Virus record (IMG/VR): IMGVR_UViG_3300040808_002403
Coordinates: 1-28,621 of that record
Source: a virus
Reading direction: 5' to 3' (one strand)
DNA length: 28,621 nt
Shown here in pieces: positions 1,228 through 22,899 of the stretch. Every line of letters begins with the position of its first letter. Position 1 is the stretch's first letter. Position numbers and translations under genes: made by a program. The notes under the pieces are model-generated. The model did not search any database. It had not been told where the DNA came from and saw only the letters and a program-made list of their open reading frames with translations.

Positions 1228-1712
1228 ATATACCAAAAAATATGTCTCAGGAGGAAGTGCTTGAGACTATACAGATAATAATTGGGAGAATCGCCCCAAA
1301 GTACACATTTCAGGGGTACGAGATTGAAGATATAAAACAAGAGGCGTTTATTATATGTGTTGACGCCCTTGACAGGTACGATCCAACAAGACCTCTTGAA
1401 AACTTTCTGTCAGTAAACTTATCAAACAGACTGAAGAACTTTGTTCGTGATAATAACTATACAAAGTCTGGAGACCAGAAGAAAAAAGCCCTATTGCCAG
1501 TTTCCTTATCAAACGAAGATCACGTTGAAGACCACAGGGAAGACATTACGTTAGACACTAAAGAAATGCTTGAGATTATAGATGAACATATAGATATAGA
1601 CTTTCGTTCAGACTACTTGAAAATCATTAATAACGTACACGTACCAAAGAAACGCAAGATAGAAGTGCTTGACCATATACAATATATATTAAAGGAGAAT
1701 GGTTATGCGTAA
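1224..1712 (+). CDS. Sigma-70 region-2-like protein, putative late sigma factor
   Basis: This 162-residue protein carries a sigma-70 region-2 signature at about residues 30-78: GYEIEDIKQEAFIICVDALD, then RYDPTRP and a run ending in NRLKNFVRDN. That matches the core-binding and -10-recognition helices, where family members have E-D-x-x-Q-E, a-x-x-R-y-D-p and IrN-x-I-r-d patterns. Region 4 is not present. A short sigma with only region 2 is the plan of T4 gp55, which directs RNA polymerase to late promoters with the sliding clamp. The remaining sequence is acidic then basic (PKKRK at about 141). The start overlaps the upstream stop as ATGA and has no good ribosome site, so translation is probably coupled. 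By inference it may read the GTGTATA motif found in this window. Confidence 0.7.
   Translation: MNIPKNMSQEEVLETIQIIIGRIAPKYTFQGYEIEDIKQEAFIICVDALDRYDPTRPLENFLSVNLSNRLKNFVRDNNYTKSGDQKKKALLPVSLSNEDHVEDHREDITLDTKEMLEIIDEHIDIDFRSDYLKIINNVHVPKKRKIEVLDHIQYILKENGYA
1691..1698 (+). promoter_or_regulatory. Ribosome binding site that sets the start of the HTH gene
   Basis: AAAGGAGA ends directly against an ATG at 1699, too close for that codon. It lies 7 bases (from GGAG) before the second in-frame ATG at 1705, which is therefore preferred. Confidence 0.6.
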
Positions 1713-2490
1713 GGGCCGCATATCAAAAGACGAAGAGCGCACAATCGCCCGTTTAGTTGATAGCATGACTCCAGAAGATATTGCTAAGAAACTGAATAGA
1801 GACACTTCTTCTGTAGAAAGTTTTATTAAGCGCAAGTTCAAGGTAGGACTCACAAATGAAGAGTTCGCTGCGTATTCACTTGAAGACCGCCCCTATTGGG
1901 TTGAGCTAAAGGCCCAGTTTACTGATCATGAATTAGAGCTGTTTAAATATCACTGGTCACGCATTATCTCGCAGTTCAAGGATGACGTATTCCCAACAGA
2001 AGAATTACAGGTCGTTGATGTTATTAAGTTAGAGATTCTTATGAATAGGTGTCTTAAAGGTAATAAAGAAAACATAGAACAAATTAACGCATACGATCAG
2101 ATGATTAAGGACGAGCGATCTAGAGACAAGGACCAGCAAGACACAGACTATATTATTAACTTAGAACGCCAAGTTGCGTCTTTAAGAGCATCTCAGGAAA
2201 GCCTGAACAGAGACTATCGCGAGTTGCAAGCCAAAAAGGCAAGTATGTTGCGCGAAATGAAAGGAACCCGTGAACAAAGAATCAAAAGGCTGGAAGATAG
2301 CAAGCAAAGCTTCACAAGCTGGGTAGCGGCGATGATGCAAGATCCAGAACGCATGAGAAACTATGGAATACAGATGGAAAAGATGAAGGTGGCTATGGGT
2401 AAAGAAGAGGAAAGATTGGCATCTTTCCATAAATATGAAGACGGAACCGTTGACCAACCATTTTTAACACCAGAGACAGTAAAGGATTAA
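1705..2490 (+). CDS. HTH / coiled-coil DNA-binding protein, candidate small terminase
   Basis: The product has 261 residues from the preferred start at 1705; an ATG at 1699 is in frame but abuts the ribosome site. Residues about 8-45 look like a helix-turn-helix (MTPEDIAKKLNRDTSSVESF). A middle helical region includes FPTEELQVVDVIKLEILMNR (96-115), and about 145-200 is a long charged coiled coil. An N-terminal HTH followed by an oligomerising helical middle is the usual plan of small terminase subunits, and no other TerS candidate lies in this contig upstream of TerL. Alternatively it is a transcription regulator, since it overlaps the sigma-like gene and could supply a region-4-like function. 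The sequence does not decide between these. Confidence 0.75.
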   Translation: MRKGRISKDEERTIARLVDSMTPEDIAKKLNRDTSSVESFIKRKFKVGLTNEEFAAYSLEDRPYWVELKAQFTDHELELFKYHWSRIISQFKDDVFPTEELQVVDVIKLEILMNRCLKGNKENIEQINAYDQMIKDERSRDKDQQDTDYIINLERQVASLRASQESLNRDYRELQAKKASMLREMKGTREQRIKRLEDSKQSFTSWVAAMMQDPERMRNYGIQMEKMKVAMGKEEERLASFHKYEDGTVDQPFLTPETVKD

Positions 2491-2491
2491 T

Positions 2492-2593
2492 ATGACACCA
2501 CTATCGGTAATATTACCATGTTGGTTATTCGCTATTGGTATAGAATTACTAGTTTTCGGTTTCTTTTATAATCTGTGTAGAGATAAGAAATGA
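2492..2593 (+). CDS. Small single-pass membrane peptide (33 aa)
   Basis: A 33-codon frame starts one base after the upstream stop and ends in TGA overlapping the ATG of the next gene (ATGA at 2590-2593), so it fits the compact operon exactly. It encodes a hydrophobic stretch at about residues 4-26 (ILPCWLFAIGIELLVFGFFY) followed by a short positive tail (CRDKK), the layout of a small inner-membrane protein with a cytoplasmic C-terminus. I do not recognise it. It could anchor glycosylation enzymes, act in lysis or superinfection control, or merely couple translation. Confidence 0.5.
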   Translation: MTPLSVILPCWLFAIGIELLVFGFFYNLCRDKK

Positions 2594-3345
2594 AAAAAAT
2601 AGGAATAGTAATAATAGCAACGAATGCTTACTTCGTTCTTGGTATTAAACTGATAAAACAGTTTTACCATTTCTATTCTGGAGATAGTGAAATTGTATTT
2701 TATTTTTTCTCAGATACCGATCCGGCCCCTTATTTACAAGACGATATTCAATTTAAGTTCTATGAGGAGCATCACGAATCTTGGGTGAATGGAACCAACT
2801 CAAAGTTTATTAATATTATTTCACTAGAAAATGAAGATGTTGACTATCTTTATTATTTTGACGCTGATACGGGGATTAGCAGAAATTTCACCGAAGAATG
2901 GTTTATTGGAGATTTAGTTGGCGGTGAGCATTTTGCTAACAGAACATGGATGATAGACAAAAAGGGTTTTGATAGAAATCCAAAATCTAAAGCTTACGTA
3001 CCGTTAGATACAAATTTACCGCAGATGTATTACTACGGTGCGTTCTTTGGTGGCAAGAAAGATATTGTTGTAGATTTTTGTAAAACTCTTAGATTATGGC
3101 AGTTAGAAGACAAAAAAATTCCATATGAACCCGGAGTAAACGATGAGAGCTATATCAATGCTTATTTTCATTACAATCAACCAAAAGTTGTAACTAACGA
3201 CAATTTTGCTTTCAACATAAGTGATAAATCTGGAATTGGAGAAACAAGAAATACAAATTTGAACATAGAAGAAATTAAAAAAGATTTGCTGAAAAACAAA
3301 AATAAATCTATAAACATATGCAATGGTAAGGTTAATGAAATCTAG
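2590..3345 (+). CDS. Family GT6 (ABO / alpha-1,3-galactosyltransferase type) glycosyltransferase
   Basis: The 251-residue product aligns by eye along its catalytic core with the ABO blood-group enzymes. VDYLYYFDADTG (84-95) matches the DXD metal/UDP site (D91, D93). KSKAYVP (133-139 region) matches the SQAYIP segment, and YYYGAFFGG (147-155) matches the YYMGAFFGG segment. NDESYINAYF (184-193) matches HDESHLNKYL, and E186 corresponds to the catalytic Glu303 of ABO. These enzymes transfer Gal or GalNAc from UDP-sugar in alpha-1,3 linkage, often to a fucosylated galactose. A151 corresponds to Ala268 of the B (galactosyl) enzyme, hinting at UDP-Gal. There is no membrane anchor or signal peptide, so it is cytosolic as in bacterial members. 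It is coupled to the membrane peptide upstream and overlaps the next glycosyltransferase. The substrate is inferred. Confidence 0.85.
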   Translation: MKKIGIVIIATNAYFVLGIKLIKQFYHFYSGDSEIVFYFFSDTDPAPYLQDDIQFKFYEEHHESWVNGTNSKFINIISLENEDVDYLYYFDADTGISRNFTEEWFIGDLVGGEHFANRTWMIDKKGFDRNPKSKAYVPLDTNLPQMYYYGAFFGGKKDIVVDFCKTLRLWQLEDKKIPYEPGVNDESYINAYFHYNQPKVVTNDNFAFNISDKSGIGETRNTNLNIEEIKKDLLKNKNKSINICNGKVNEI

Positions 3346-4618
3346 TTATTCTTATATCAATGGAAGCATAAAGTTTGAGAATGTTGTATTACAAGGAGGC
3401 AATGTTCTGTATTGTGGAGATTGTTCTAATATACCTATAATAAATAAGTTTCCAGTTTCGAACTGTATACTCCCAATAAAGTCAGTAAAAGATTATTCAA
3501 ACATAACAATAAAAAAAGAAATAGAATATGGCTGCATTGGCGATAATCTATGGTATGGGAATATAGCCCATGCACTGCTAGACGGCCTGTATCCTATTTA
3601 TTTATCAATGATTAAATTTGGTGATATTCATAATGATTTCGTTTATTTCTCTCACAGTTGGGACAATAGAAAAACTCTTTCAACCGAAGCAATCAATACC
3701 TTTTCTGGAAATGAACTAGTCAATACGTCAGAAATGTCTAATAAATCTGTTTTTTGTAAAAACTTAGTGAGCGGCTGCGGAACCGGAAAAACACTAGCTG
3801 GCAATTGTGTTATTAATAAAAACTACAAGACATACGGACAAGAAGAACATAGTGCTTTCTCTATTTTTAAAGAGAGGATGTTATCTAGATTTGGATTATT
3901 TCCCAACAAACCAATCAATAGCATACCAAAGGTTATAATTGTTCACAACAAAAGATTTTCAGACAACGAAGTAAACATTCTGAAAAAATTAGAAAAAATA
4001 TTCAATAAAGAGCTAGACATAAGATACATAAACTGGTATCATGATTATAACTCTTTTGGGGATCAGATGAATGAAATTCAAGATGTCGATATACAAATTA
4101 GTGGCCCCGGAACAGGAATGTTATATTTACCATTCTTAAAAAATGGAGCCGTTAATATAAATCTTGGATACATCGATAGCACACAAAAAAACACATCAAG
4201 ACCAAACATTTTTATTGAGGGTTGCACCAAAGATGATCACTTAATACCCGGATGGATGGAGCAATCTGTTTGCTCTGCTACTGAATATGTTTCTACTTTA
4301 TATTACGATAGGTATAATTCAAATATTCTTGAAATAGAAAAATTATCAAGCTTGTTAAAAGAAGGATTGTCTATACTTGGAAAGAAGCAAATCAATAACT
4401 GGAACGTAGACGCATTAGTTTTTAAAGAATACTGTAAAAGATGCGATCACGCTCAAGATATATCAAGACATCTTACGAATATTTCCTTTTTTGTAGAATT
4501 TTTTGTAAATGAACACCCAAAAGCAATTACTGATTACGTTGATTTGGATTTATTGAGACAGATCAAAAAAGAGTTTGGATATGGAAACAAGTACTCTATA
4601 CTTATGAATGGGATTTAA
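3323..4618 (+). CDS. GT61-like (DUF563-type) glycosyltransferase
   Basis: This 431-residue protein shows the outline of family GT61. GNIAHALLDGLYPIYL (79-94) corresponds to the N-x-x-H...D-x-x-p segment. A segment with R after a beta strand (KVIIVHNKRFSDNE, about 203-216) follows. SFGDQMNEIQDVDIQISGPG (244-263), then TGMLYLPFL, corresponds to the F-x-e-Q...d-I-x-i-x-x-H-G-A-G-L-x-n-x-x-F nucleotide-sugar motif, here GPGTG in place of HGAGL. Family members include plant xylosyltransferases and animal EOGT and POMGNT2, which act on sugar or protein-linked acceptors. The C-terminal 120 residues are helical and unassigned. It overlaps the GT6 gene by 23 bases; a second ATG at 3335 is also possible. 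The family is likely; donor and acceptor are unknown. Confidence 0.7.
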   Translation: MVRLMKSSYSYINGSIKFENVVLQGGNVLYCGDCSNIPIINKFPVSNCILPIKSVKDYSNITIKKEIEYGCIGDNLWYGNIAHALLDGLYPIYLSMIKFGDIHNDFVYFSHSWDNRKTLSTEAINTFSGNELVNTSEMSNKSVFCKNLVSGCGTGKTLAGNCVINKNYKTYGQEEHSAFSIFKERMLSRFGLFPNKPINSIPKVIIVHNKRFSDNEVNILKKLEKIFNKELDIRYINWYHDYNSFGDQMNEIQDVDIQISGPGTGMLYLPFLKNGAVNINLGYIDSTQKNTSRPNIFIEGCTKDDHLIPGWMEQSVCSATEYVSTLYYDRYNSNILEIEKLSSLLKEGLSILGKKQINNWNVDALVFKEYCKRCDHAQDISRHLTNISFFVEFFVNEHPKAITDYVDLDLLRQIKKEFGYGNKYSILMNGI

Positions 4619-4619
4619 C

Positions 4620-5657
4620 ATGAAAGCAATTATCACCGGCATAACTGGACAGGATGGAAGCCATCTCGCAGACTTACTCCTTGAAAAGAACTACGAAGTA
4701 GTAGGAGTTTCAAGAAGGTGTAGCGTAGATACAACAGAGAGAATAAAACATCTAATTAATCACGAACGATTCAAGTTAATCGAGGGAGACATAACAGATG
4801 TAAGCAGTGTAATAAATATATTCCAAGATAACGAAGATGTTGATGAAGTCTACAATCTAGCGGCACAGTCGCATGTAGCGACCTCGTTTAAGCAACCGGC
4901 GCTAACTTGGGACATAACTGGAAAAGGCTGTTTAAACTTGTTACAGTCGCTCGTAGACCTATCCATGCTCAACGTTAGATTTTATCAAGCTTCCTCCAGT
5001 GAAATGTTTGGAAGCTCTTATGATATCAATGAAAACGGAGAGAAATATCAAAATGAAGAAACAAAGTTTATGCCTAACTCCCCATATGCGATTTCTAAGT
5101 GCGCTGCTCATTATTCCGTTCGTTTGTTTCGTGATGCCTATAATCTACATGCTAGCTGTGGTATACTGTTTAACCATGAAGGCCCACGTAGGGGGGAAAA
5201 CTTTGTTACACAGAAGATTGTTAAATGGATAGCTGACTTCATTCATTGGAGGAATTCTTACACAAATCCTATATTATTCTTTAGTGATGATTACATAAGT
5301 ATTAATAATGATAAATTTCCTAAGTTAAGACTTGGCAATCTAGAAGCCTATAGAGACTGGGGATATGCTGGTGATTATGTAGAGGCGATGTGGTTAATGC
5401 TACAGCAAGATATTCCAGAAGATTATGTTATTTGTACAGGAGAGACTCACACAATAGCCGAGTTCTTAAATATAGCATTTTATAGCGCTGGAATCACAGA
5501 TTATCAAAATCTATATGTAATAGATCAAGAATTTTATAGACCATCAGAGGTAGACTATTTACGAGGGGATTGTTCAAAGGCTAAAAATAAATTGGGCTGG
5601 CAACCCAAAACCAATTTGGAGGGGTTAGTCAAACTTATGCTGGATGAGAAACTATAA
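4620..5657 (+). CDS. gmd: GDP-mannose 4,6-dehydratase
   Basis: This enzyme converts GDP-D-mannose to GDP-4-keto-6-deoxymannose, the branch point to GDP-L-fucose, GDP-rhamnose and related sugars. The 345-residue product is an extended short-chain dehydrogenase. It has the NADP-binding GITGQDG (7-13) at the N-terminus, YNLAAQSHV (77-85), SSSEMFG (about 124-130), the catalytic YxxxK in PYAISK (about 154-159), NHEGPRRGENFVTQKI and RDWGYAGDYVEAMWLMLQ. The start at 4620 gives the canonical MKAIITGITGQDG; an in-frame ATG at 4608 adds four residues inside the previous gene. An insertion of about 20 residues (around 212-233) before LGNLEAYRDWG is unusual. No GDP-fucose synthase or rhamnose reductase is in the window, so the next step must come from the host or elsewhere in the phage. 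Confidence 0.92.
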   Translation: MKAIITGITGQDGSHLADLLLEKNYEVVGVSRRCSVDTTERIKHLINHERFKLIEGDITDVSSVINIFQDNEDVDEVYNLAAQSHVATSFKQPALTWDITGKGCLNLLQSLVDLSMLNVRFYQASSSEMFGSSYDINENGEKYQNEETKFMPNSPYAISKCAAHYSVRLFRDAYNLHASCGILFNHEGPRRGENFVTQKIVKWIADFIHWRNSYTNPILFFSDDYISINNDKFPKLRLGNLEAYRDWGYAGDYVEAMWLMLQQDIPEDYVICTGETHTIAEFLNIAFYSAGITDYQNLYVIDQEFYRPSEVDYLRGDCSKAKNKLGWQPKTNLEGLVKLMLDEKL

Positions 5658-9246: not shown

Positions 9247-9287
9247 TAAGTATACAGTCCGAATACATTCCAATTGAGGTAAAAAGC

Positions 9288-11318
9288 ATGAGCGACGAAA
9301 TGTTTACATGGCGAGAAGAAGACGAAAATAGCAAAACCAATGCGATGTCACACCTATCACAGAATGTTGATGCTTATAGCGGATTAACTAAGTCGCAAGG
9401 TAGTCATTACCGCCATTTTATAGACATTGAGCCAAACAGATCCGTTCGCCCCGGCTTCACCTCTAGGGACTATTATGCTTTCAGGCCAGATGAAAATGTA
9501 CCAACGCAACAACGTCGTATTATTAAGATGTGTATGGATGCGTATGATAAAGTTGGAATCATTCGTAATATTATTGACCTTATGGGCGACTTTGGTAGTC
9601 AGGGTATCCAGATTGTCCACAAAGATAAAAGTGTTGAAAAGTTCTATCAGCAGTGGTTCAGAAGCGTAAACGGAAAAGAAAGATCAGAAAGATTTCTCAA
9701 TAATTTATACAGATGTGGTAATGTTATAGTTTATAGGAGTTATGCTAATATAACACCGCAACTAAAGAACTATATGAAAGCTCTGTCCTCAGATATTAAA
9801 GTTGAAGTTCCAACATCTACCCCAAACGAAATACCTTGGAGATACAACTTCTTCAATCCATTGACTGTAAAAATGAAGGATGGAAATCTTTCGTTATTTA
9901 TGGGCTTACAGAACTATACAATAACAACAAACTCATTTTTTGATAAATTCAAGGTTGGAGAAATCCCAAACCACATACTTGAATCTTTACCAATAAACAT
10001 TAAACAAAGCTTACTTCGCGGGGAAAAAGATATACCACTAGATCCAGAAAGATTGTCAATCTTCTACTACAAGAAAGACGATTGGAGACAATGGGCAAAC
10101 CCAATGATTTACGCCATTCTTGATGATATTGTAATGTTAGAAAAAATGAGACTTGCTGATATGTCAGCTTTAGACGGCGCTATTTCAAACATTAGACTTT
10201 GGACGCTTGGTAATCTAGAACACAAGATTTTACCAAACAAGGCAGCTATCAATAAGTTAAGAGACATACTTGCTACTAATGTTGGTGGCGGTACTATGGA
10301 ATTAGTTTGGGGTCCAGAGTTATCTTTCACCGAGTCGCATAGCGAAGTATACAAGTTCTTGGGTTCAGAAAAATACAATTCTGTACTCAACAGTATTTAC
10401 GCTGGACTTGGCGTTCCACCAACTCTGACTGGAATGGCTTCAAACGGTGGAGGTTTCACAAATAATTTCATATCTCTTAAAACTCTATTAGAAAGATTAC
10501 AGTACGGTAGAGATCAGCTTGTACGATTCTGGGAAAAAGAACTAGAAATTGTCAGAAAAGCTATGGGCTTCCGTTATAAAGCTCATATTCAATTTGACCA
10601 GATGACACTATCTGACGAGGCTGCTACAAAGAATCTTCTTATTCAACTTGCAGATCGTGACATTATTAGCCATGAAACACTACTTGAAAGATTTAAGGAA
10701 ATTCCTCAAATCGAAAACATTAGAATCAAAAGAGAGCTTGACAAAAGAGAAAGTTCTGGCCCACCAAAAGCTAGTCCTTATCATAACCCAAATCATTCTC
10801 AAGACTTAGAAAAAATGGATAAGCAGAATGAGATTAATATTAAGCAAGAAAAAATAAAACAAAAGAGCGGAAATGCTCCATCTAATATAGATATTAAAAA
10901 TAACGGCAGACCTCTTAACCAAAAAGATACCGAACCAAGAAAACGTCGCGTCGATACCCCAAGAAGTAATCCGGGCGTGGCTGAGTTATTCGTATGGGCA
11001 GAGAAATCTTGGGATCACATATCTTCTACAATCAACCAAGCGTATCTTAAATCTAAAAACAAAAAGAATTCAAGACAGTTAAATAAAGCAGAAATAAAAG
11101 ACCTTGAAAATATAAAACTTGAAATTTTTAGTAACATGATACCATTTGACAATGTTACTAGTGAGTACATACTAGATAATGTTAAAAGCAAGAATGGTAT
11201 CAAAAAAGAGTTCGCTGACAGATGCGTAGCTTCTAGCGTTAATATAGACAGCATGAATATCGATGATTATAGGAAACATGTTATCGGAATTTATGTCGAA
11301 CAGAATGTCCTAAATTGA
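9288..11318 (+). CDS. Portal protein
   Basis: The 676-residue product lies between terL and the prohead protease, the conserved place for the portal, the dodecameric ring through which DNA enters. The portal core runs to about residue 490, with VGIIRNIIDLMGDFGSQG (89-106) near the N-terminus. A later stretch, NSIYAGLGVPPTLTGMASNG and GGFTNNFISLKTLLERLQYG, is the typical crown/wing helix after a G-V-P loop. A basic linker (about 490-560) and a helical tail of about 110 residues follow, longer than in many portals, and could bind scaffold or ejection proteins. A GAGG ribosome site lies 8 bases before the ATG. Confidence 0.88.
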   Translation: MSDEMFTWREEDENSKTNAMSHLSQNVDAYSGLTKSQGSHYRHFIDIEPNRSVRPGFTSRDYYAFRPDENVPTQQRRIIKMCMDAYDKVGIIRNIIDLMGDFGSQGIQIVHKDKSVEKFYQQWFRSVNGKERSERFLNNLYRCGNVIVYRSYANITPQLKNYMKALSSDIKVEVPTSTPNEIPWRYNFFNPLTVKMKDGNLSLFMGLQNYTITTNSFFDKFKVGEIPNHILESLPINIKQSLLRGEKDIPLDPERLSIFYYKKDDWRQWANPMIYAILDDIVMLEKMRLADMSALDGAISNIRLWTLGNLEHKILPNKAAINKLRDILATNVGGGTMELVWGPELSFTESHSEVYKFLGSEKYNSVLNSIYAGLGVPPTLTGMASNGGGFTNNFISLKTLLERLQYGRDQLVRFWEKELEIVRKAMGFRYKAHIQFDQMTLSDEAATKNLLIQLADRDIISHETLLERFKEIPQIENIRIKRELDKRESSGPPKASPYHNPNHSQDLEKMDKQNEINIKQEKIKQKSGNAPSNIDIKNNGRPLNQKDTEPRKRRVDTPRSNPGVAELFVWAEKSWDHISSTINQAYLKSKNKKNSRQLNKAEIKDLENIKLEIFSNMIPFDNVTSEYILDNVKSKNGIKKEFADRCVASSVNIDSMNIDDYRKHVIGIYVEQNVLN

Positions 11319-13349: not shown

Positions 13350-14357
13350 ATGCCTACAAATGAAAGACCTAGTGATGAATTTATCGCTCTCCTACGTAAG
13401 TCAGGTGATAGCGATGTAAATGTGGCTCAGGCCGCACAGCGTGAATTCGCTAAAGCTCTTGAGCTACCTCTTCGTAAGGGTGTACTCGTTGGTAACATCC
13501 TTGGTAATATCTTCGAAACCATCAATGTCGAAGCTGGTTCAACTACTGAGTTTCCTTTGGATCTCATTAGCCCCGGCCTAGAAGGCGAACATGTCGCTTA
13601 CACCAATCCCGGTCATGGTAGAATTCCAGAACGTGCGGTTGAAAGTGATTACGTCATGATTCCAACCTACAACATTGCTTCATCAGTCGATTACCTCCTA
13701 CGATATGCCCGTGAGGCACGTTGGGATGTTGTCGCCCGTGCAATGCAGGTTATGGAAGCCGGTTTCGTAAAGAAGATGAATGATGATGGTTGGCACACCC
13801 TTCTCGCCGCAGGTGTTGACCGTAACATCCTCGTCTTCGACGGTGACGCAACAGCTGGTCTATTCAGCAAGAGACTCGTTTCTCTTATGCAGACTGTCAT
13901 GCGTCGTAACTCAGGTGGTAATAGTGCTTCAGTTGGTCGCGGTCGCCTAACTGATCTCTATGTTTCACCAGAAGCTCTTGAAGATGTCCGCAACTGGGGT
14001 CTCGATCAGGTCGATGAGGTCACTCGTCGCGAGATTTATTCTGCTCCAGAAGGTGGCGCACCAATCACCCGCATCTTTGGTGTGAATCTTCATGATCTGG
14101 ACGAACTTGGCGAAGGCCAAGAGTATCAGACGTTCTTCACTGATGAACTCAGTGGGTTCGTTGAAACAGACGACCTTGAGTTGGTCGTTGGTCTTGATCA
14201 GTCTTCAAACGATAGCTTTGTAATGCCAGTTAAGGAGCAGTTACAGGTCTTCGAAGATCCAACTCTTCACAGACAGCAACGTGCTGGATATTACGGCTGG
14301 GCAGAGCTTGGCTTTGGTGTTCTAGACAATAGAAGAATCCTTCTTGGCTCATTCTGA
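13350..14357 (+). CDS. Major capsid protein
   Basis: The 335-residue protein lies at the end of the terL-portal-protease-decoration block and is read from the strongest ribosome site in the window (AAGGAG at 13335-13340). It has a helical, charged N-terminal segment (residues 1-50), then a beta-rich body with FETINVEAGSTTEFPLDLI, a long helix region (VVARAMQVMEAGFVKKMNDD) and a C-terminal QRAGYYGWAELGFGVLDNRR, consistent with an HK97-fold shell protein. Codon use favours CGT/CGC Arg and C-ending codons, unlike the AGA-rich neighbours, as expected of the most highly translated late gene. A terminator follows 26 bases after the stop. I assign it by position, length and composition, since capsid folds show few motifs. 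Confidence 0.85.
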   Translation: MPTNERPSDEFIALLRKSGDSDVNVAQAAQREFAKALELPLRKGVLVGNILGNIFETINVEAGSTTEFPLDLISPGLEGEHVAYTNPGHGRIPERAVESDYVMIPTYNIASSVDYLLRYAREARWDVVARAMQVMEAGFVKKMNDDGWHTLLAAGVDRNILVFDGDATAGLFSKRLVSLMQTVMRRNSGGNSASVGRGRLTDLYVSPEALEDVRNWGLDQVDEVTRREIYSAPEGGAPITRIFGVNLHDLDELGEGQEYQTFFTDELSGFVETDDLELVVGLDQSSNDSFVMPVKEQLQVFEDPTLHRQQRAGYYGWAELGFGVLDNRRILLGSF

Positions 14358-15133: not shown

Positions 15134-18100
15134 ATGATTATTCCAAAAACCAGATTAGTTAATAATATAAATCAGGAGCTGTCTGATAACTCCACTGGTC
15201 AAATTTCACCAAGAGATATTAGACATAATCTTCTGGATATTATTGACTCTATTCACTTACTAACTAAAGATAGTGAAATAGAGTCTCTTAATCTTGGTAC
15301 TCCAGAAACTAGATCTGTTAGAGTTGGACAATTAAGCTTAGACAGTTTAAAGCTTGATGGTTACACATCTACTGACAACGTAGCCGTTGGCTATGCAACT
15401 CTTAGATCTAGCTATCAAACAAGAAGAAATACGGCGATTGGTTCATACGCACTTAGTTGTAATATTCACGGAGATGGAAATCTAGCACTTGGTTACAACT
15501 CCTTAGCCGGAAATACAACTGGCTATTCTAACGTTGGTATTGGAACACATTCGCTAAACGCCAACAAGCGTGGACATTTCAACATAGCAATAGGAAACGC
15601 CGCTGGCTACTACATTGGTCCAGACGATAGTTACAAGTTTTATCTTGCTTCTCACCAAGTTGACGAATCTTACATATGTGATAATCCAAACGGTATTGGA
15701 TTAACGCCACTTCTTTATGGTGATTTGCAAAATAATAAGCTTGGTATTAATACTAATTCTCTACACAGTGATTCTGTTTTACAGACAGCTGGTAATATTT
15801 CTCCATCTTCTGGAGATATTTATTCCGTAGGCTTGCCTTCTAAGAGGTGGAATGAAGCATATATAAACACGCTTCTTAATGGCGATACGTCCATATCAAT
15901 TAATCAGCAAAACATTGTATTAGCTTCCAACAGTGGTATAATTCTTGACTCCAATGAAATTATTATCGGTGGAGACATTCTTCCAGATGAAACCTCAACT
16001 CACGATATTGGAAAAGTTGACAATAGATTTAACCGTGGATATTTCGAAGAAGTTCTAACAAATTACCTGACGGCTTTGCAAAAGAGTTTCTTCGCCCATA
16101 AAACTATCTATCTAGCATCTAGCGGAGAGTGGTCAATAGATGGCGGTGGTCCATCTTCTTTGTACGAATACTATCCATGTCCAAACAGCCCAGACATAGT
16201 TCCTACGCTGGATGATGATGAGATTGACGGCGGTGGATTAGTATTACAGTCAACGTCAAATCAATATAACTTCACATTTAAATCGTCTGACGATTCCTGT
16301 GGAGCTAGCAAGAGGTGGTTTTCAAATATTGGCATAGAGATTTCTGGTATTGATAACTATCTTAAAACACCAGCTGTTATATCTAGCGAATCTATTAATT
16401 GTAAAGGCATTTTTATGTCTGGGGAGCAGATATTCTTCTCAGATAAAGATACATACTTGCTAAACGAAAACGTTGCTGGCAATGGTCATATAAATTACTA
16501 TGCACCTTCTGGCAATACTGACCTTAAAGAGTTTGTAGTTTCGCACATAGCCTTAGAGTCTGGCATAGATATAACACAACGCTTTTTATCATCTTCTTAT
16601 CCAAAACAAATTACAGATGACGAACAGCATTTTACTGGCTTTGAGACCAAGTTCTTTAATCAAAATGAAAATACTAGACTTGTTACAAGATCTTATTACG
16701 ATAGCATAAACGCTAACAAGCATCTTATTATGATGAGTAATGATGCTGGAACTTTAGGTCTTAATAATTTTTCCGCAAATGGTCATGAGCTTTTTCCAGA
16801 AACTATATTTAATATCAGAAGCGTAGACGATGCTGTTATTCGTGCTACTGCCGAGAACGATGCAGATTCATTCTCAGCGCTTCAGCTACTTGCTCATCAA
16901 AATTGCTTGAATAGTGGTGTCGATATTTCTTATCAAAACAATAGCGGAATATTTGCCCTTAACATCTACGATAACTTCAATAAGTATAATGTTCTGAATT
17001 CAACTAGCGGAACCTTCCTAGGAATATATGCATCGTCTGGCACTGGAGACTTGGTTAGCGTTGGTAGTTTTGGAAGCCCCAATACTTCTATTGCAATATA
17101 TCAGGCAGATAATCCCCCAATCCATACAGAGCTTTATGGCAAACTATACGTAACCAACAAAGACGTTACAAACCAAAGTCAGACTTTAAATTTCCTTGAC
17201 GACGAAGGAAATGTTTTTGATTTAATTCTTAGTCAGTATTCCACTACTGATGGATTAATTTATTCTGAAAATGGAAATACTTTTGGTGGAATTTGTCCAG
17301 ATGTACGAGGTGATATTCCAGAAGCATCAAACAACACAGCTTTTGGTTATCAAGCTCTTAATAATATTACAACTGGCGATTGCAATACAATGGTTGGCAA
17401 GAACGCTGGATCTACTATAACAACTGGATTTAATAATATTGGAATTGGCTGTGATGCACTAAATGGTGCTTCTTCCGAAGTTACTTACAACATTGTTATT
17501 GGCGGCGATAGCGTTGGCAGCTCTATTGAGAGTAACTATAATTTCATGCTCGGTCCTTCAAATTCTAACTTGCTTCTTGAAGGCAAGATGGGGCCAACCG
17601 TTTCAGATAAGCATCTATACATGCCAGATGGAAAACTAACTTTGTATGGACCATCTAAGTCTACGGCTCTTCATTTTCAAAGTAGCAAGATAGAAATACA
17701 AGACTTCTCTGGGCCTGACTATCCAGAAGATGATTTTTCAATTAAATTTACTGGTAACGAAACTAGCGATTTAATGGTATTAAATCATAATTGCAACCCA
17801 TTTGATCAACTCTATAGTTATAAAACATTTAGCCCTGCAAGACCATCTGTTGAAGTGAAGGGCGATGTTAGGGTTAAAGGAGCAATTGCTTTTAGAGATG
17901 GAAGCTTCATGGAAAGCGCCTCTCTGCTCAATAATATTCAGCCACTTGTTGATACTTTACAAGATATTTTTCTAGAAGGTTTTGCTTTAGAAGATATAGA
18001 TACTGCGGCTGGAGTAGAAGATCCAACAACCGGAATCATTAAATTAAGAAACACAAAAGAGGTTAGAGTAACTAACAGAGATAAATATTTGAGGATTAAG

Positions 18101-18196
18101 AAAGATGATTATATCATAGCAATAAAGATTGGTGGAGAATATAGGCCGATTTGGATAAGCAATTCTTCTTCAAGTTGCACATGTTGTACAAGATAA
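15134..18196 (+). CDS. Large tail fibre with YadA-head-like repeats (1020 aa)
   Basis: This is the longest gene in the window. The N-terminus (NINQELSDNSTGQISPRDIR, 11-30) is typical of phage fibre attachment segments. Two blocks of roughly 14-residue repeats with the pattern N-x-A-x-G-x-x-A-L...G (residues about 81-160 and 733-800, for example NNTAFGYQALNN) resemble YadA head repeats, which form trimeric left-handed beta rolls in bacterial adhesins and phage fibres. STHDIGKVDNRFNRGYFEEV (about 287-306) is another common fibre motif. The C-terminus ends in a Ser/Cys tip, SNSSSSCTCCTR. A trimeric fibre that binds the host surface is the likely role. No hydrolase motif is evident. The start lacks a clear ribosome site and follows the previous stop by 6 bases. 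Confidence 0.85.
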   Translation: MIIPKTRLVNNINQELSDNSTGQISPRDIRHNLLDIIDSIHLLTKDSEIESLNLGTPETRSVRVGQLSLDSLKLDGYTSTDNVAVGYATLRSSYQTRRNTAIGSYALSCNIHGDGNLALGYNSLAGNTTGYSNVGIGTHSLNANKRGHFNIAIGNAAGYYIGPDDSYKFYLASHQVDESYICDNPNGIGLTPLLYGDLQNNKLGINTNSLHSDSVLQTAGNISPSSGDIYSVGLPSKRWNEAYINTLLNGDTSISINQQNIVLASNSGIILDSNEIIIGGDILPDETSTHDIGKVDNRFNRGYFEEVLTNYLTALQKSFFAHKTIYLASSGEWSIDGGGPSSLYEYYPCPNSPDIVPTLDDDEIDGGGLVLQSTSNQYNFTFKSSDDSCGASKRWFSNIGIEISGIDNYLKTPAVISSESINCKGIFMSGEQIFFSDKDTYLLNENVAGNGHINYYAPSGNTDLKEFVVSHIALESGIDITQRFLSSSYPKQITDDEQHFTGFETKFFNQNENTRLVTRSYYDSINANKHLIMMSNDAGTLGLNNFSANGHELFPETIFNIRSVDDAVIRATAENDADSFSALQLLAHQNCLNSGVDISYQNNSGIFALNIYDNFNKYNVLNSTSGTFLGIYASSGTGDLVSVGSFGSPNTSIAIYQADNPPIHTELYGKLYVTNKDVTNQSQTLNFLDDEGNVFDLILSQYSTTDGLIYSENGNTFGGICPDVRGDIPEASNNTAFGYQALNNITTGDCNTMVGKNAGSTITTGFNNIGIGCDALNGASSEVTYNIVIGGDSVGSSIESNYNFMLGPSNSNLLLEGKMGPTVSDKHLYMPDGKLTLYGPSKSTALHFQSSKIEIQDFSGPDYPEDDFSIKFTGNETSDLMVLNHNCNPFDQLYSYKTFSPARPSVEVKGDVRVKGAIAFRDGSFMESASLLNNIQPLVDTLQDIFLEGFALEDIDTAAGVEDPTTGIIKLRNTKEVRVTNRDKYLRIKKDDYIIAIKIGGEYRPIWISNSSSSCTCCTR

Positions 18197-18223: not shown

Positions 18224-19831
18224 ATGGGAAGACCAAAACACTTTTGTGAAAAACCTCAAGATCCATACTTGCAGTATGTTGCTCCAACCACAACAACGTC
18301 AACTACTACAGCTCCATTTGAATCTTACATAAGATATCCAAACTACACAGATTGTATTGATTTATCAAATATTATTGACAATGTTTTACCTTATTATTCT
18401 GGAGGTTTAGTCTTAGACTTTGAAGGCGTTGTGGGTTGTCAGTTTATTCATTTAGAAACAATGGGTACGCCACTTTCTGAAGGTGCTATTGTTTCTTTTG
18501 GCTCTTGCGGTACAGTTACTGGCAGCAACGTTCTGCTGAGTAATGATTCTTGGCAGTGTTTAACATCTCCCGGAAATATTAAGATATTATCTGGTGATAT
18601 AGAATTAATAGAGAGTTCTGAATCTTGCGAATGTGGAGATGCGCCACCTGAACCTACTACCACAACACCTCCTACGCAGACCACAACACCTCCTACGCAG
18701 ACCACAACACCTCCTACGCAGACCACAACAACGCTTTCTCCAGATATTGACGGATCAACTGATAGATGCCCGATAATTTTACCAAGACACTCAACTGGTT
18801 ATAAAGAAGTTTATCCAGATAGTGTAATTGTGGCTTTTAGAGTAATCCCAAGCGCTTTTGATGATAGAGAAAGTGTTACTTTTGGCGTAAATACTTTCCG
18901 TAACAATTATGAAAGCTATAACACCTTTTTAACTGAGAATGCAAGTGAGAAGAAAGTTTTTTATGAAGGAACATGGCCCGACAGAGCTGGCCTTGGTGGT
19001 TGGCGGTACATGGAATTTCTTGACGCTTGTGTTGACGAACTTGACTATTGTGTACAATCTAAGGTTACTCAAACTACAGATCAATTCACATCTTCTTACG
19101 ACTATACGCATGGTCCAATTTGGGAATTAGTAGAACTTTACAGAGCTTCACAAAGCCAATATGATGACTTATACACCATGAACAGGTGGGTTGGCTCTTA
19201 TGGGGGCAGTAGTTGGCTTAAAGATAATAATACTCTTTATTTTCCAAACGTAGAAGAATTTTATGATATGCAAATAGAAGAAACGCAAGAATATCTACTC
19301 TCAGTTACAGTTAACCTAAGCAGAGTCTTTACAAGTAGACTTCTTCAGCGCCCCGGTGAGGCGGTAAGAAAATTTTTGAGTGATTCCATAGATCCTCAAA
19401 TCTGGGTTTGGACACAAGAGCGCAAAATAGAAGATAAAATAAATAAAAAAACCTATGCTGAACATAAACGAAGAGAAATTGTCATAGTTCAATACGATTC
19501 CCAATACTGGAATATAACTGACGCTGCATACAGTCCAGACATCAGCAGACAAGATACAATAAGCGTAAATATTACTTCTTACCCTCATTTTCCGGGTGTA
19601 ATAAGCTCTGATCCGTGGATTGATTTAAACGAAGGCACAACAGTACCAATTGGAGACGCAGAAGCTCAAAATATTTTAACCTTATATTCAAGCAATGATT
19701 TCAGTACTTTTGGTAACGATATTGCTTTCAAACGGTTTACTTTTCCCGCTGTGTGCAACCCGATTCCTTGGAAAGATACAGAGGAACTTGAGCCTCGTAT
19801 ATTCTTCCCCGGCTTAATAACCTATGAATAA
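18224..19831 (+). CDS. Putative virion adhesin with Thr/Pro mucin-like linkers (535 aa)
   Basis: I do not recognise the globular parts. A short N-terminal segment is followed by a Thr linker (PTTTTSTTTAP, 21-31), a Cys-containing beta-like domain (about 32-140), a second linker built from repeats of TTTPPTQ (143-172) and a C-terminal domain of about 360 residues. That last domain is rich in Tyr and Trp (EGTWPDRAGLGGWRY, WELVELYRASQSQYDD) and basic in the middle (ERKIEDKINKKTYAEHKRRE). Domain-linker-domain architecture between fibre genes points to a virion surface protein. No signal peptide is seen. A weak AGG site lies before the ATG at 18224. Its stop overlaps the next gene's start by 8 bases. 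Function beyond a virion component is inferred. Confidence 0.7.
   Translation: MGRPKHFCEKPQDPYLQYVAPTTTTSTTTAPFESYIRYPNYTDCIDLSNIIDNVLPYYSGGLVLDFEGVVGCQFIHLETMGTPLSEGAIVSFGSCGTVTGSNVLLSNDSWQCLTSPGNIKILSGDIELIESSESCECGDAPPEPTTTTPPTQTTTPPTQTTTPPTQTTTTLSPDIDGSTDRCPIILPRHSTGYKEVYPDSVIVAFRVIPSAFDDRESVTFGVNTFRNNYESYNTFLTENASEKKVFYEGTWPDRAGLGGWRYMEFLDACVDELDYCVQSKVTQTTDQFTSSYDYTHGPIWELVELYRASQSQYDDLYTMNRWVGSYGGSSWLKDNNTLYFPNVEEFYDMQIEETQEYLLSVTVNLSRVFTSRLLQRPGEAVRKFLSDSIDPQIWVWTQERKIEDKINKKTYAEHKRREIVIVQYDSQYWNITDAAYSPDISRQDTISVNITSYPHFPGVISSDPWIDLNEGTTVPIGDAEAQNILTLYSSNDFSTFGNDIAFKRFTFPAVCNPIPWKDTEELEPRIFFPGLITYE
18659..18730 (+). repeat. Tandem 21-base coding repeat (TTTPPTQ), three copies plus a partial
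   Basis: Three perfect 21-base units (18659-18679, 18680-18700, 18701-18721) and nine bases of a fourth encode TTTPPTQ. They are identical at every base, which implies recent duplication or gene conversion. Changes in copy number would keep the reading frame and only alter linker length. Confidence 0.9.
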
Positions 19832-21017
19832 AAGAACAATAAATAAAAACTCTGTGTTTTTGCCAGTTGCAAATATCTACGTATCTGAAGATAGATGCGA
19901 CAGCGTTGTTCTATCCATAGAGGGCGACACTGAAAATAATTTTATTATTCTAGACCGAATGTTATATCTAGTTAAAAAACCAAGAGTTGGCACTTATAAT
20001 ATTACAGTAAGGGCTAGTGACAAGTTTGACAGATACCCTTCTATAACAGATACTTACACTCTGACGGTTAGCGAGTGTGATAGTTGTGTATTAACAACTC
20101 CGCCGCCAACAACCCCGCCGCCAACAACCCCACCACCAACAACAACACCCCCTCCAACAACAACAACAACAAGTACAACAACTAGTACCACAACAAGCAC
20201 AACAACCAGCACTACCACAACAACCAGCACTACCACAACAACCAGCACTACCACAACTACCAGCACTACCACTAGCACCACAACAACTCCATGTCCTTGT
20301 GATTGGAATGGTGCTGGTACTGTTAATATTAGCAATTGTGGCTACGAAGAAGAATTAACTTGGCAAAGGAGCGGAGACAGTTGGACTGTTACTGTTCCTT
20401 TGTGTTCTAACGAATCTTTAAGTGCTACAATTACTTGCAACCCAAATGTATGTTTAAATACGTCAGTGCTGCCAGATGCTAATGAATGCTCAAAGAAATG
20501 GACTATTTCTGCCAGCTTAAGTTGTGGAACAGTTTCTGTTGGCCAAAATGATGGAAATTGCTCCAACACTTCACCGCCTTACTGGCCGTTTACTTTACAA
20601 AGTGTTTCTTGCCCAGATCCATGTTGTCCACAACCTCCAGTTGGAGCTTGCTGTTTTAGCAATGGTACTTGCATAGGCAATCAATTGGAAGGAAATTGTT
20701 TATCCCAGCAGGGTGCAGTAAGTTGGCATAAAGATCAAAGCTGTCAAGATGTTGATTGCAGCAATCCCGCAACAACAACAACAACAACAACAACAACACC
20801 ATTATGTACTGGTTCATGCACTTGGGAGCTTCAACAGCCAGACCCAGCTCCACCTGTCTGGGTAGGCATTGGCAGCGATCCTTGTGTGGGTGACTGCGAA
20901 TGTCCATATCCTCAAGATGATACAAATCAACCACTCGGAACCCAAGTTACCACCAATTGCGAACCATCTGCTTCTTCGTCTGGTTTAGATCTAGATTACT
21001 CTAACCCCCTACCTTGA
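19824..21017 (+). CDS. Cys-rich virion protein with long Thr-rich mucin-like linker (397 aa)
   Basis: Residues 1-85 resemble a cadherin-like beta sandwich (NITVRASDKF..., TDTYTLTV). A linker at 91-155 is almost only Pro, Thr and Ser (PPPTT units then TSTTT units). The rest is Cys-rich, with over 30 cysteines in the protein, and includes GACCFSNGTC (274-283), then further Cys to about 314. This follows the G-A-C-C-x-x-x-G-x-C...C...C-x-x-x-x-C pattern I know from secreted proteins of planctomycetes and other bacteria. A second all-Thr run of nine follows, then another Cys-rich segment. No enzyme motif is visible. Disulfide- or metal-stabilised domains on a flexible, possibly glycosylated stalk are the likely design of an exposed virion adhesin. 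Confidence 0.7.
   Translation: MNKRTINKNSVFLPVANIYVSEDRCDSVVLSIEGDTENNFIILDRMLYLVKKPRVGTYNITVRASDKFDRYPSITDTYTLTVSECDSCVLTTPPPTTPPPTTPPPTTTPPPTTTTTSTTTSTTTSTTTSTTTTTSTTTTTSTTTTTSTTTSTTTTPCPCDWNGAGTVNISNCGYEEELTWQRSGDSWTVTVPLCSNESLSATITCNPNVCLNTSVLPDANECSKKWTISASLSCGTVSVGQNDGNCSNTSPPYWPFTLQSVSCPDPCCPQPPVGACCFSNGTCIGNQLEGNCLSQQGAVSWHKDQSCQDVDCSNPATTTTTTTTTPLCTGSCTWELQQPDPAPPVWVGIGSDPCVGDCECPYPQDDTNQPLGTQVTTNCEPSASSSGLDLDYSNPLP
20095..20290 (+). repeat. Low-complexity Pro/Thr/Ser coding repeats
   Basis: The stretch encodes the Thr-rich stalk. PPPTT units (about 20098-20150) are followed by TSTTT-type units. From 20205 an 18-base unit, ACCAGCACTACCACAACA, repeats at 20205, 20223 and, slightly changed, 20241 and 20259. 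Identity at the base level shows expansion by slippage or unequal exchange. All unit lengths are multiples of three. Confidence 0.9.
20770..20796 (+). repeat. (CAA)9 trinucleotide run
   Basis: Nine CAA units, read in the gene's frame as ACA, encode a Thr9 linker between two Cys-rich segments of the same protein. Slippage here would change linker length in frame. Confidence 0.9.
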
Positions 21018-21018
21018 T

Positions 21019-21414
21019 ATGATTACTACCCATAAAAAAAATCTTATTGCAAGATGCAAAGAAAGACTTTATAAACTAGAAGAAGTCATGGACTGTGTAG
21101 TTAGTCAAAATGGAGATATTTGGACTATAGACGTAGACCATGCAAAATACCCACATACAATTAAGCAAGGAGTTGGAACAGAATTAAAGAAATTCCTTTC
21201 TAATTTTGGAATAAAAACAACTCCAAACTGTAGATGTACATACAGAGCTATAGAAATGAATTTTCAAGGAATAGAATGGTGTAAAAACAACCGTGAGCTT
21301 ATAGTTGATTGGCTTGAAGAAGAAGCAAAATCAAGAAAGTTGCCATTTCTAAGATTTGCTGGACGTAAAGCAGTAGATATAGCAATTAGAAGATCAGAAA
21401 AATTAAAGAAGTAA
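21019..21414 (+). CDS. Conserved-looking hypothetical protein (131 aa)
   Basis: The 131-residue product has the sequence TELKKFLSNFGIKTTPNCRC, then TYRAIEMNFQGIEWCKNNRE and LIVDWLEEEAKSRKLPF. This G-T-E-L-K-K...C-x-C...A-x-x-M-x-x-x-G-x-x-W-C-x-x-N...W-L-x-E-E-A layout recurs, as I recall, in small uncharacterised proteins of phages and environmental sequences. Three conserved-looking cysteines (about 72, 74 and 88) could bind metal. It is basic at the C-terminus (RRSEKLKK) and has no signal peptide. It sits between virion genes with one base to the previous stop and one to the next start. No function can be assigned. Confidence 0.75.
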   Translation: MITTHKKNLIARCKERLYKLEEVMDCVVSQNGDIWTIDVDHAKYPHTIKQGVGTELKKFLSNFGIKTTPNCRCTYRAIEMNFQGIEWCKNNRELIVDWLEEEAKSRKLPFLRFAGRKAVDIAIRRSEKLKK

Positions 21415-21415
21415 A

Positions 21416-22321
21416 ATGCCACACTACCAAAGACCAAAAAGAACTCTAAGATCATATACAAATTCTTCTGTCAGTATACCAACTGGCGAGAAGATAGCAA
21501 TAGTTATAGATAATAATGAATATCGACTTTTACATGACCGCGAAGTTTTGGTCGAAAGTGGCGCTGAATTTACTTCTACAAGCATCGTAAAAGAAACACT
21601 TAACAGTAACACAAGTGTAAAAATAGTATCAGCAGAACTTTTAGATGTTGTTGGATTGATAAATGTTTCTTTGTTCTCTAAAGATAAAAAGATAATAGCA
21701 ACAAAAAATATTACTAAGCCAACAAAAGTTATCAAGTTTGGGTGTGGAGAAATACTAAATGAAATCACGCTAGATTCTGATTATTTACTGATAACCTTCA
21801 GAAGCGTTTGTCAGATATCCAAAGAAGATTGTTGTGATAAACTTGAAGAGTTAACGATCTTTGATAAGATTGAAGACTTTTGCATTTATGACCCATGCGC
21901 AAACGTCATGCCTCTTCAGGCCCAATTAACTACAGATAGGAATACAAGTGTTAGATTTTTACTGTACCATGAAGAAATATTACTCGACACCGGATACGTG
22001 AACACTACGGACGATGTTATGAATTATGTTTTAACAATAGATGATAAGATATATTTTAAAAATCCAACGGGCGAGCTATATTTATTAGACTATTACCCTC
22101 AGCATATTTGTTCTGTAGACGATGATATCGTTGTCACTAATCGTCTATGCAAGAGTCAAGGCGTATCGTATGATTGCAGATCATCTATTCCTGACTGTCC
22201 ACCTCAAATACCAGCTTTGCCGCCGTTTACGATGTGTGGAGTTACAACAACGGTTGATAAATCATGCACTTGGGTATTCAATTTTGATGTTTGTGAAATG
22301 AAAGTGTGCGTGTTAGAATGA
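21416..22321 (+). CDS. Putative virion protein, beta-rich with paired cysteines (301 aa)
   Basis: I do not recognise a family. The first 30 residues are basic (MPHYQRPKRTLR), and the rest alternates short beta-like strands (EKIAIVIDNNEYRLLHDREV; VKIVSAELLDVVGLINVSLF) with Cys-containing joints (EDCCDKL, FCIYDPC, ICSV, DCRSSIPDCP). The C-terminus holds five Cys in about 30 residues (TMCGVTTTVDKSCTWVFN and on). No signal peptide, membrane segment or catalytic motif is visible. It is part of an unbroken run of structural genes and its TGA overlaps the next ATG (ATGA at 22318-22321), so it is probably a stoichiometric partner of the following linker protein. Confidence 0.65.
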   Translation: MPHYQRPKRTLRSYTNSSVSIPTGEKIAIVIDNNEYRLLHDREVLVESGAEFTSTSIVKETLNSNTSVKIVSAELLDVVGLINVSLFSKDKKIIATKNITKPTKVIKFGCGEILNEITLDSDYLLITFRSVCQISKEDCCDKLEELTIFDKIEDFCIYDPCANVMPLQAQLTTDRNTSVRFLLYHEEILLDTGYVNTTDDVMNYVLTIDDKIYFKNPTGELYLLDYYPQHICSVDDDIVVTNRLCKSQGVSYDCRSSIPDCPPQIPALPPFTMCGVTTTVDKSCTWVFNFDVCEMKVCVLE

Positions 22322-22899
22322 AGGATTTAGGAAATAAAATATTTGGCGGCTTAAGTAATAATTCGTTTGGAATTAATATAGAACAATTTTACTGTCGAAA
22401 CGTCTGGGAAGTTGTCATTCAAGACGGAGCTGGTTCTCCAATACTTCAGGCTACGAGTTGTAACGATGAAGCTTTAGATTGTAGCATTACTTTTCCATCA
22501 ACAACTATACCTCCAAGCATTACCACTACTACATTACCCCCAAGTGACTCAGCTTCTTTCGATATTACACCTCCGCATTTTTACTTGATTCCCCCTAGCG
22601 GTTATCGCTTTGAAACATTTCTTCGTCTTTTCAGCCCATCAAAATACATTTCTTATGCTAATGATAACGATGTAAGTTTTTTGATGTTTCAAGTTCAATT
22701 GTTAAACCCTAAAAACCAACCAATTAATTTTATTCTTGTGAATATTGATCCAAACAAGTCTGAACAAGTAGCATATTTTTCTCCCACTGATCCTTTTAAT
22801 TTCTCAACCGATCTTATAGATGGTGAAACATATACTATTATTGTTGAAGACGTTTTTGGCGATAGGTACAGCGTACAATACACTCACAGAATTCTTTAA
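22318..22899 (+). CDS. Virion protein with a Thr/Pro linker between two small domains (193 aa)
   Basis: From ATG 22318 the product has 193 residues; an in-frame GTG at 22306 is possible, but the ATGA overlap with the upstream stop favours the ATG. A short N-terminal domain with Cys (YCRNVWEVVIQDGAG, TSCN, LDC) leads to a PSTTIPPSITTTTLPP-type linker (about 57-76) and a beta-like C-terminal domain of about 115 residues with aromatic strands (PHFYLIPPSGYRFETFLRLF). It shares the domain-linker-domain plan of the proteins at 18224 and 19824 but has no internal DNA repeat of that kind. No family is recognised. Confidence 0.65.
   Translation: MKDLGNKIFGGLSNNSFGINIEQFYCRNVWEVVIQDGAGSPILQATSCNDEALDCSITFPSTTIPPSITTTTLPPSDSASFDITPPHFYLIPPSGYRFETFLRLFSPSKYISYANDNDVSFLMFQVQLLNPKNQPINFILVNIDPNKSEQVAYFSPTDPFNFSTDLIDGETYTIIVEDVFGDRYSVQYTHRIL

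Follow-up and report, generated by a model that had tools for sequence, protein, structure and literature searches.

Does a phage that carries genes for sugar-transferring enzymes use them on its own tail? The question is raised by IMG/VR virus record IMGVR_UViG_3300040808_002403, a stretch of 28,621 nucleotides (hereafter the window, at its full length), in which three of five consecutive genes encode linkers rich in threonine (Thr), proline (Pro) and serine (Ser) and another group of genes encodes putative glycosyltransferases (GTs). The original prediction had proposed that the phage glycosylates these stalks itself, making a mucin-like coat. In the window and its relatives, the presence of the linkers tracks an exchangeable set of sugar genes, and it is therefore likely that the virus attaches sugars to proteins of its own tail. 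The explanation that we favor is that the phage enzymes put O-linked glycans on the Thr/Pro/Ser linkers between the domains of modular tail adhesins, which we consider probable, if well short of certain.

The predicted linkers were found in the three proteins to within a few residues (Table 1); two are long and one is short. Since the observed Thr/Pro/Ser density was reached in 0 of 1,000 shuffles of each protein, the tracts cannot be due to chance. The dense Thr/Ser/Pro tract that defines a mucin-like sequence is present in the window proteins, a likeness that concerns the tract only. The 21-bp units in the first gene and the 18-bp units in the second reflect two recent DNA duplications. In the second protein, a 69-amino-acid (aa) Thr/Pro/Ser tract lies between an N-terminal and a central domain, and a run of nine Thr residues follows. 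The first two domains of this protein correspond to segments delimited by tracts in relatives; partial homologues were present in just 2 of 33 records of the same phage clade, which were read as whole or partial records. No homologue was found for the first gene in the 33 clade records, IMG/VR or INPHARED, or for the third in the 33 clade records, and Pfam and PHROGs gave no named match for any of the three. The two genes between the second and the third (21019-21414 and 21416-22321) have no Thr tract. From their position in the structural module, the three tract proteins appear to be virion proteins.

Thr tracts recur in most clade relatives and are nearly confined to the variable, fast-evolving adhesin region 3' of the capsid gene; upstream of a point 3 kb beyond that gene, just 2 tracts were present in approximately 1.75 Mb. 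Splitting the proteins at their tracts yielded 271 segments; among these, 36 families have more than one member and reappear next to varying partners, which identifies the tracts as linkers between shuffled domains. Low-complexity linkers of any kind are missing from the adhesin region of most Thr-negative phages; in a few, Gly-rich linkers or short linkers of another type are present. To speak of a mucin-like coat was an overstatement, because the tracts are linkers between the domains of variable tail adhesins.

The sugar genes occupy a hypervariable slot between a conserved gene and a gene for a GDP-mannose 4,6-dehydratase-like (GMD-like) enzyme, in which each phage has a different enzyme set or none. 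The Pfam families of these cassettes comprise GT6, GT2, GT92-like, GT11, GT17, GT25, GT29, GT32-type (Gly_transf_sug), sulfotransferases (in 9 of 45 records searched), sugar-type methyltransferases and cytidylyltransferases. In the window, the presence of a GT6 gene was confirmed by a profile score above the family cut-off and a DxD-type motif; in the PDB, its product aligns to ABO enzymes and to alpha-1,3-galactosyltransferase, the DVD of which lies opposite YYFDADTG. The gene that had been predicted as GT61 stays below the curated cut-off and is referred to here as GT61-like: all three relatives of the gene match the family, albeit weakly (best E 3e-4), and a model of the protein from 3 sequences was too poor for a structure search (predicted local distance difference test score [pLDDT], 41). 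The GMD-like gene, a third sugar gene that the prediction had not listed, is found in 31 of the 34 records (window included); the other 3 do not cover the position. With 363.7 bits, NCBIfam TIGR01472 is its best-matching equivalog by far, and the gene is named "GMD-like" because the equivalog cut-off of 415 was missed.

The link between tracts and cassettes was assessed in 56 records in which both states are known: 31 have a tract and a cassette, 4 a tract only, 8 a cassette only and 13 neither. Removal of near-duplicates left 48 lineages, which were coded in two ways. Under the strict coding (tract within 3 to 14 kb beyond the capsid gene; any open reading frame [ORF] of at least 120 aa in the slot), the respective counts are 25/4/7/12 (Fisher p 6e-4). 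The wider coding, which accepts tracts within 30 kb and, in the slot, nothing but sugar-type ORFs, gives 24/7/2/15 (Fisher p 1.4e-5); here the tract window was picked after tracts further downstream had been seen in G010 and G013, and the unnamed clusters 2, 9, 21 and 29 were classed as sugar-type on judgement. The strict coding accordingly provides the safer number. On a tree of terminase, portal and capsid proteins, a model of dependent evolution outperformed independence (likelihood ratio 14-18, p 0.001-0.006), 0 of 150 simulations under independence reached either observed ratio, and the fitted rate of tract gain is approximately zero without a cassette. The result is the same with a continuous measure of Thr (7.5 versus 0.9 Thr-dense residues per 100 aa, p 4e-5; a further p of 2e-4) and with nearest-relative contrasts (13 for, 0 against and 9 ties), the later pairs of which are not fully independent. 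Thr-negative records are no shorter downstream. Taken literally, the predicted co-occurrence of Thr tracts with GT6 and GT61 does not hold in the clade (GT61 in 0 of 33 records, the GT6 Pfam model in 2 of 33), and this exact pair is not the general partner of the tracts; widened to sugar-type enzymes in the same slot, the co-occurrence is strong and survives the phylogenetic test. GT6 genes of the window type are present in 9 clade records, and all 8 with known tract status are Thr-positive.

The exact pair has a counterpart in another lineage. Beyond the window, a GT61-like gene was found in two contigs only, L412 and L413, and in the near-identical L083, and a profile search gave the same loci. 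L083, an 11.5-kb contig from another IMG/VR record, corresponds to the first 11.5 kb of the window with 100% protein identity in the genes checked, the GT6-GT61 cassette included. L412 and L413 have no other gene in common with the clade in the stretches read and belong to a separate phage lineage, in which GT6-GT61 recurs independently beside Thr-rich genes. The order in both is Thr-rich gene, phrog_4417, GT6 and GT61; 3' of these, L412 has an FkbM-type methyltransferase gene and L413 a gene with a similar start. With this recurrence and the cassette link, the association behind the idea of self-glycosylated stalks stands, which does not apply to the coat.

The gene between the Thr-rich gene and GT6 belongs to phrog_4417, the "prophage pi2 protein 34" family, which is present in 74 INPHARED records. 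A Thr-rich tract lies at most 0.9 kb upstream of phrog_4417 in 14 of 19 cultured-phage regions read, and within 330 bp in 12 of these; several of the 19 phages are close relatives, so there are fewer independent cases than 14/19 suggests. The tracts are often located in, or directly after, a major capsid or tail protein gene, e.g., in Enterococcus phage phiFL1A, whose major tail protein ends with TTTTTSTTTTTTSSTTTTTTTQASSK near phrog_4417. Chryseobacterium phage MA9V-3 likewise combines phrog_4417 with a Thr tail. An invariant DxD in a Y-x-D-x-D context is shared by 13 diverse members. The family profile had no Pfam or PDB sequence match, and GT-A enzymes dominate the top fold matches (Z up to 6.9, Foldseek E 0.004) of a low-confidence two-sequence model (pLDDT 53, predicted template modeling score 0.57), a resemblance that is suggestive only. 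With its position next to Thr-rich virion sequence, the family is a candidate for a Thr-tail-modifying enzyme. In L424 (at ~5833) and L432 (at ~7785), a Thr-rich stretch lies in an open frame directly past the annotated stop of the capsid-position gene (annotated as major capsid protein in L424 and as hypothetical protein in L432), which suggests a frameshifted or readthrough C-terminal extension.

According to the scenario that we propose for the clade, soluble cytoplasmic enzymes of the late module would glycosylate the Thr linkers before assembly and virion release. The conserved GMD-like enzyme would supply an activated GDP-deoxysugar, and the swappable cassette would set which glycan is built or capped, here with GT6 and the GT61-like protein and elsewhere with other glycosyl-, sulfo- and methyltransferases. 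The GT61 family includes protein-O-linked enzymes, which makes the GT61-like protein, despite its weak family assignment, the natural candidate for the first Thr-sugar bond in the window. The glycans might make the linkers stiffer and more resistant to proteases and add variation to the virion surface.

Several observations weigh against glycosylation of the linkers by the cassette. Four Thr-positive lineages (G002, G007, G015 and G031) have an empty cassette, which means either that other genes serve, such as a GT2 located elsewhere in the G002 genome, or that linkers can stay bare. Conversely, G029 has a GT29 gene in the slot and no Thr tract. Some cassettes consist of a methyl- or sulfotransferase alone, whose initiating enzyme must then sit elsewhere or in the host. 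Distant GT6 genes occur in cyanophages and huge phages as well, with Thr tracts nearby in 0 of 7 regions, and phrog_4417 is absent from 20 clade records tested and was not found in the window. Finally, the GC content differs slightly between the groups, being lower in Thr-positive phages, so that host or habitat could confound the tract-cassette link. The last point would fit a different explanation, namely, that the tracts are plain unmodified flexible linkers, that the cassette acts on glycans of the host surface (in receptor masking or superinfection exclusion), and that the two traits go together because they suit the same type of host. In its favor, variable GT clusters with GMD in cyanophages, e.g., in P-SSM2, lie away from tail genes and lack Thr tracts. 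Nevertheless, we regard this explanation as rather unlikely: the cassette enzymes are small, soluble by hydropathy scan and encoded within the packaging/structural module, just three of 34 clusters of cassette proteins are wholly or mostly membrane proteins, and membrane partners were seen only in G034-type cassettes. Moreover, the GT6-GT61 pair directly behind Thr-rich genes in another lineage and the persistence of the tract-cassette link under tree control weigh against it.

Two further explanations would separate the tracts from the enzymes altogether. Phage glycosyltransferases are known to glucosylate DNA (PMC12619734), and the enzymes could serve a hypermodification of the T4 type unrelated to the stalks; with no match to the thymidylate-synthase/hydroxymethylase family (PF00303) in 15 clade records searched, this is very improbable, the more so as the cassette holds methyltransferases, sulfotransferases, GT11 and GT29 and is correlated with a trait of tail proteins. 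Hardly any more credit is due to neutral trinucleotide slippage in weakly constrained genes, if anything slightly less, even though the exact repeats of the window testify to tandem duplication. In 126 tracts, adjacent Thr codons are identical in 30.9% of cases versus 29.7% expected from codon frequencies, and this mixing is indicative of selection on the protein and not of raw slippage, which is disfavored as the sole origin of the tracts. Slippage would also have to account for the near-absence of tracts upstream of the adhesin region, their position between domains and their correlation with the cassette. Decoration of the tail adhesins by the phage's own enzymes remains our preferred reading.

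The window is a complete linear record of 28.6 kb and probably a piece of a larger phage genome; relatives measure up to 174 kb. Conserved genes are followed by the sugar cassette, the GMD-like gene, HNH-type and other small genes, terminase, portal, a protease-like gene, the capsid gene and tail genes; the genes up to 15134-18196 are kept in nearly all 33 relatives. The capsid gene has at least 599 matches in IMG/VR, the best 80 of which show 85-96% identity, and none among the 50,697 cultured or deposited phage records of INPHARED; the clade is one of abundant, uncultured, aquatic phages. Matches of the window terminase are only ~25% identical. In G022, G023 and G027, the distance from the terminase start to the capsid gene is ~16-17 kb instead of the usual ~6 kb, corresponding to a large insertion in the packaging module. 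Genes resembling subtilisin-type proteases were recognized by eye in G020 (8490-9692), G021 (16834-18003) and G028 (3198-4382); with the capsid gene on the plus strand, they lie on the opposite (minus) strand, directly upstream of the conserved block. One clade member, L408 (VFHP01000009.1), was binned in a SAR202 metagenome-assembled genome and is near-identical to G041, which is Thr-negative with an empty cassette. This is the sole lead towards a host, and a possible one at most: the binning of phage contigs is unreliable, and SAR202 was not accepted as the host on this evidence.

Table 1. Features discussed in the text (window positions unless a contig is named)
Feature	Position	Strand	Evidence
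Conserved gene, other cassette edge	1699..2490	+	30/33 records, 77% median identity
GT6 glycosyltransferase, cassette member	2590..3345	+	Pfam PF03414 48.9 bits vs cut-off 25, E 5e-13; DAD at DxD position
GT61-like gene, cassette member	3323..4618	+	Pfam GT61 17.5 bits vs curated cut-off 27, E 0.005
GMD-like gene, cassette edge	4608..5657	+	Pfam PF16363 371.6 bits vs 27, E 6e-111
Capsid-position gene, clade anchor	13350..14357	+	Conserved; putative major capsid protein by position
Long structural gene 5' of adhesins	15134..18196	+	Tail-spike/virion structural PHROG matches; 32/33 records, 34% median identity
Thr-linker adhesin gene 1, 535 aa	18224..19831	+	Tracts at aa 20-31 (window 18281-18316) and aa 141-173 (window 18644-18742)
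Thr/Pro/Gln tract of gene 1	18644..18742	+	3.4 exact copies of 21-bp unit
Thr-linker adhesin gene 2, 397 aa, 27 Cys	19824..21017	+	Tracts at aa 90-158 and Thr9 at aa 317-325
Main Thr/Pro/Ser tract of gene 2	20091..20297	+	Mixed ACA/ACC/ACT codons, 18-bp tandem units
Second tract of gene 2 (PATTTTTTTTTPL, Thr9)	20766..20804	+	Read directly
Small conserved gene within variable adhesin region, without tract	21019..21414	+	Homologues in 14/33 clade records
Third gene, 197 aa	22306..22899	+	Short Thr/Pro linker at ~aa 57-77; 15/20 residues T/P/S
phrog_4417 genes	L412 8249-9202; L413 8300-9226; also L421-L439		

Beyond the window, we tentatively suggest, as a possibility on which we would not yet rely, that the glycosylation of Thr tracts in virion proteins is a strategy widespread among phages. 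In the clade of the window, the swappable glycan cassette would be evolutionarily coupled to Thr-linked tail adhesins; in the L412/L413 lineage and in phages of Enterococcus, Lactobacillus, Staphylococcus and Chryseobacterium, phrog_4417 would act on the Thr tails or stalks of structural proteins. Virion glycosylation has been documented for few phages. If the proposal is true, sugar-decorated Thr stalks are common in an abundant aquatic phage clade, whose variable sugar enzymes, which one might otherwise regard as modifiers of host surfaces or DNA, gain a substrate, and phrog_4417 gains a function open to testing in cultured phages whose hosts are food or clinical bacteria. A search of the open-licence literature returned nothing direct on Thr-tract glycosylation in phages, on a coupling of variable cassettes with Thr adhesins or on the phrog_4417 link. 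The glycosylation of virions as such is already established; the coupling and the phrog_4417 link would be new, conditional on the chemistry.

Virion glycosylation is known in mycobacteriophages (PMC10877033), whose glycosyltransferases, in the account of Freeman et al. 2023 given in PMC12619734, glycosylate capsid and tail tube subunits at their C-termini. The proposed system would be alike in that phage glycosyltransferases act on structural proteins. It would differ from that account in its presumed substrate, the Thr/Pro/Ser linkers of variable tail adhesins, and in its hypervariable enzyme cassette with a conserved nucleotide-sugar dehydratase. The sugar cluster of cyanophage P-SSM2 (GMD, GT6, GT11 and GT25) draws on the same families of enzymes, GMD and a distant GT6 among them, but this cluster is large and located away from the tail genes, has no Thr tracts within 10 kb, and its GT6 is only ~30% identical. 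In the serine-rich-repeat adhesins of streptococci and staphylococci, a low-complexity Ser/Thr stalk is glycosylated in the cytoplasm by adjacent Gtf enzymes, with a strain-variable set of later-acting enzymes. These adhesins are bacterial and secreted, and Gtf belongs to a different GT family, but by analogy the phage locus may combine the same elements, i.e., a low-complexity Ser/Thr adhesin stalk and neighboring cytoplasmic enzymes with a variable later set.

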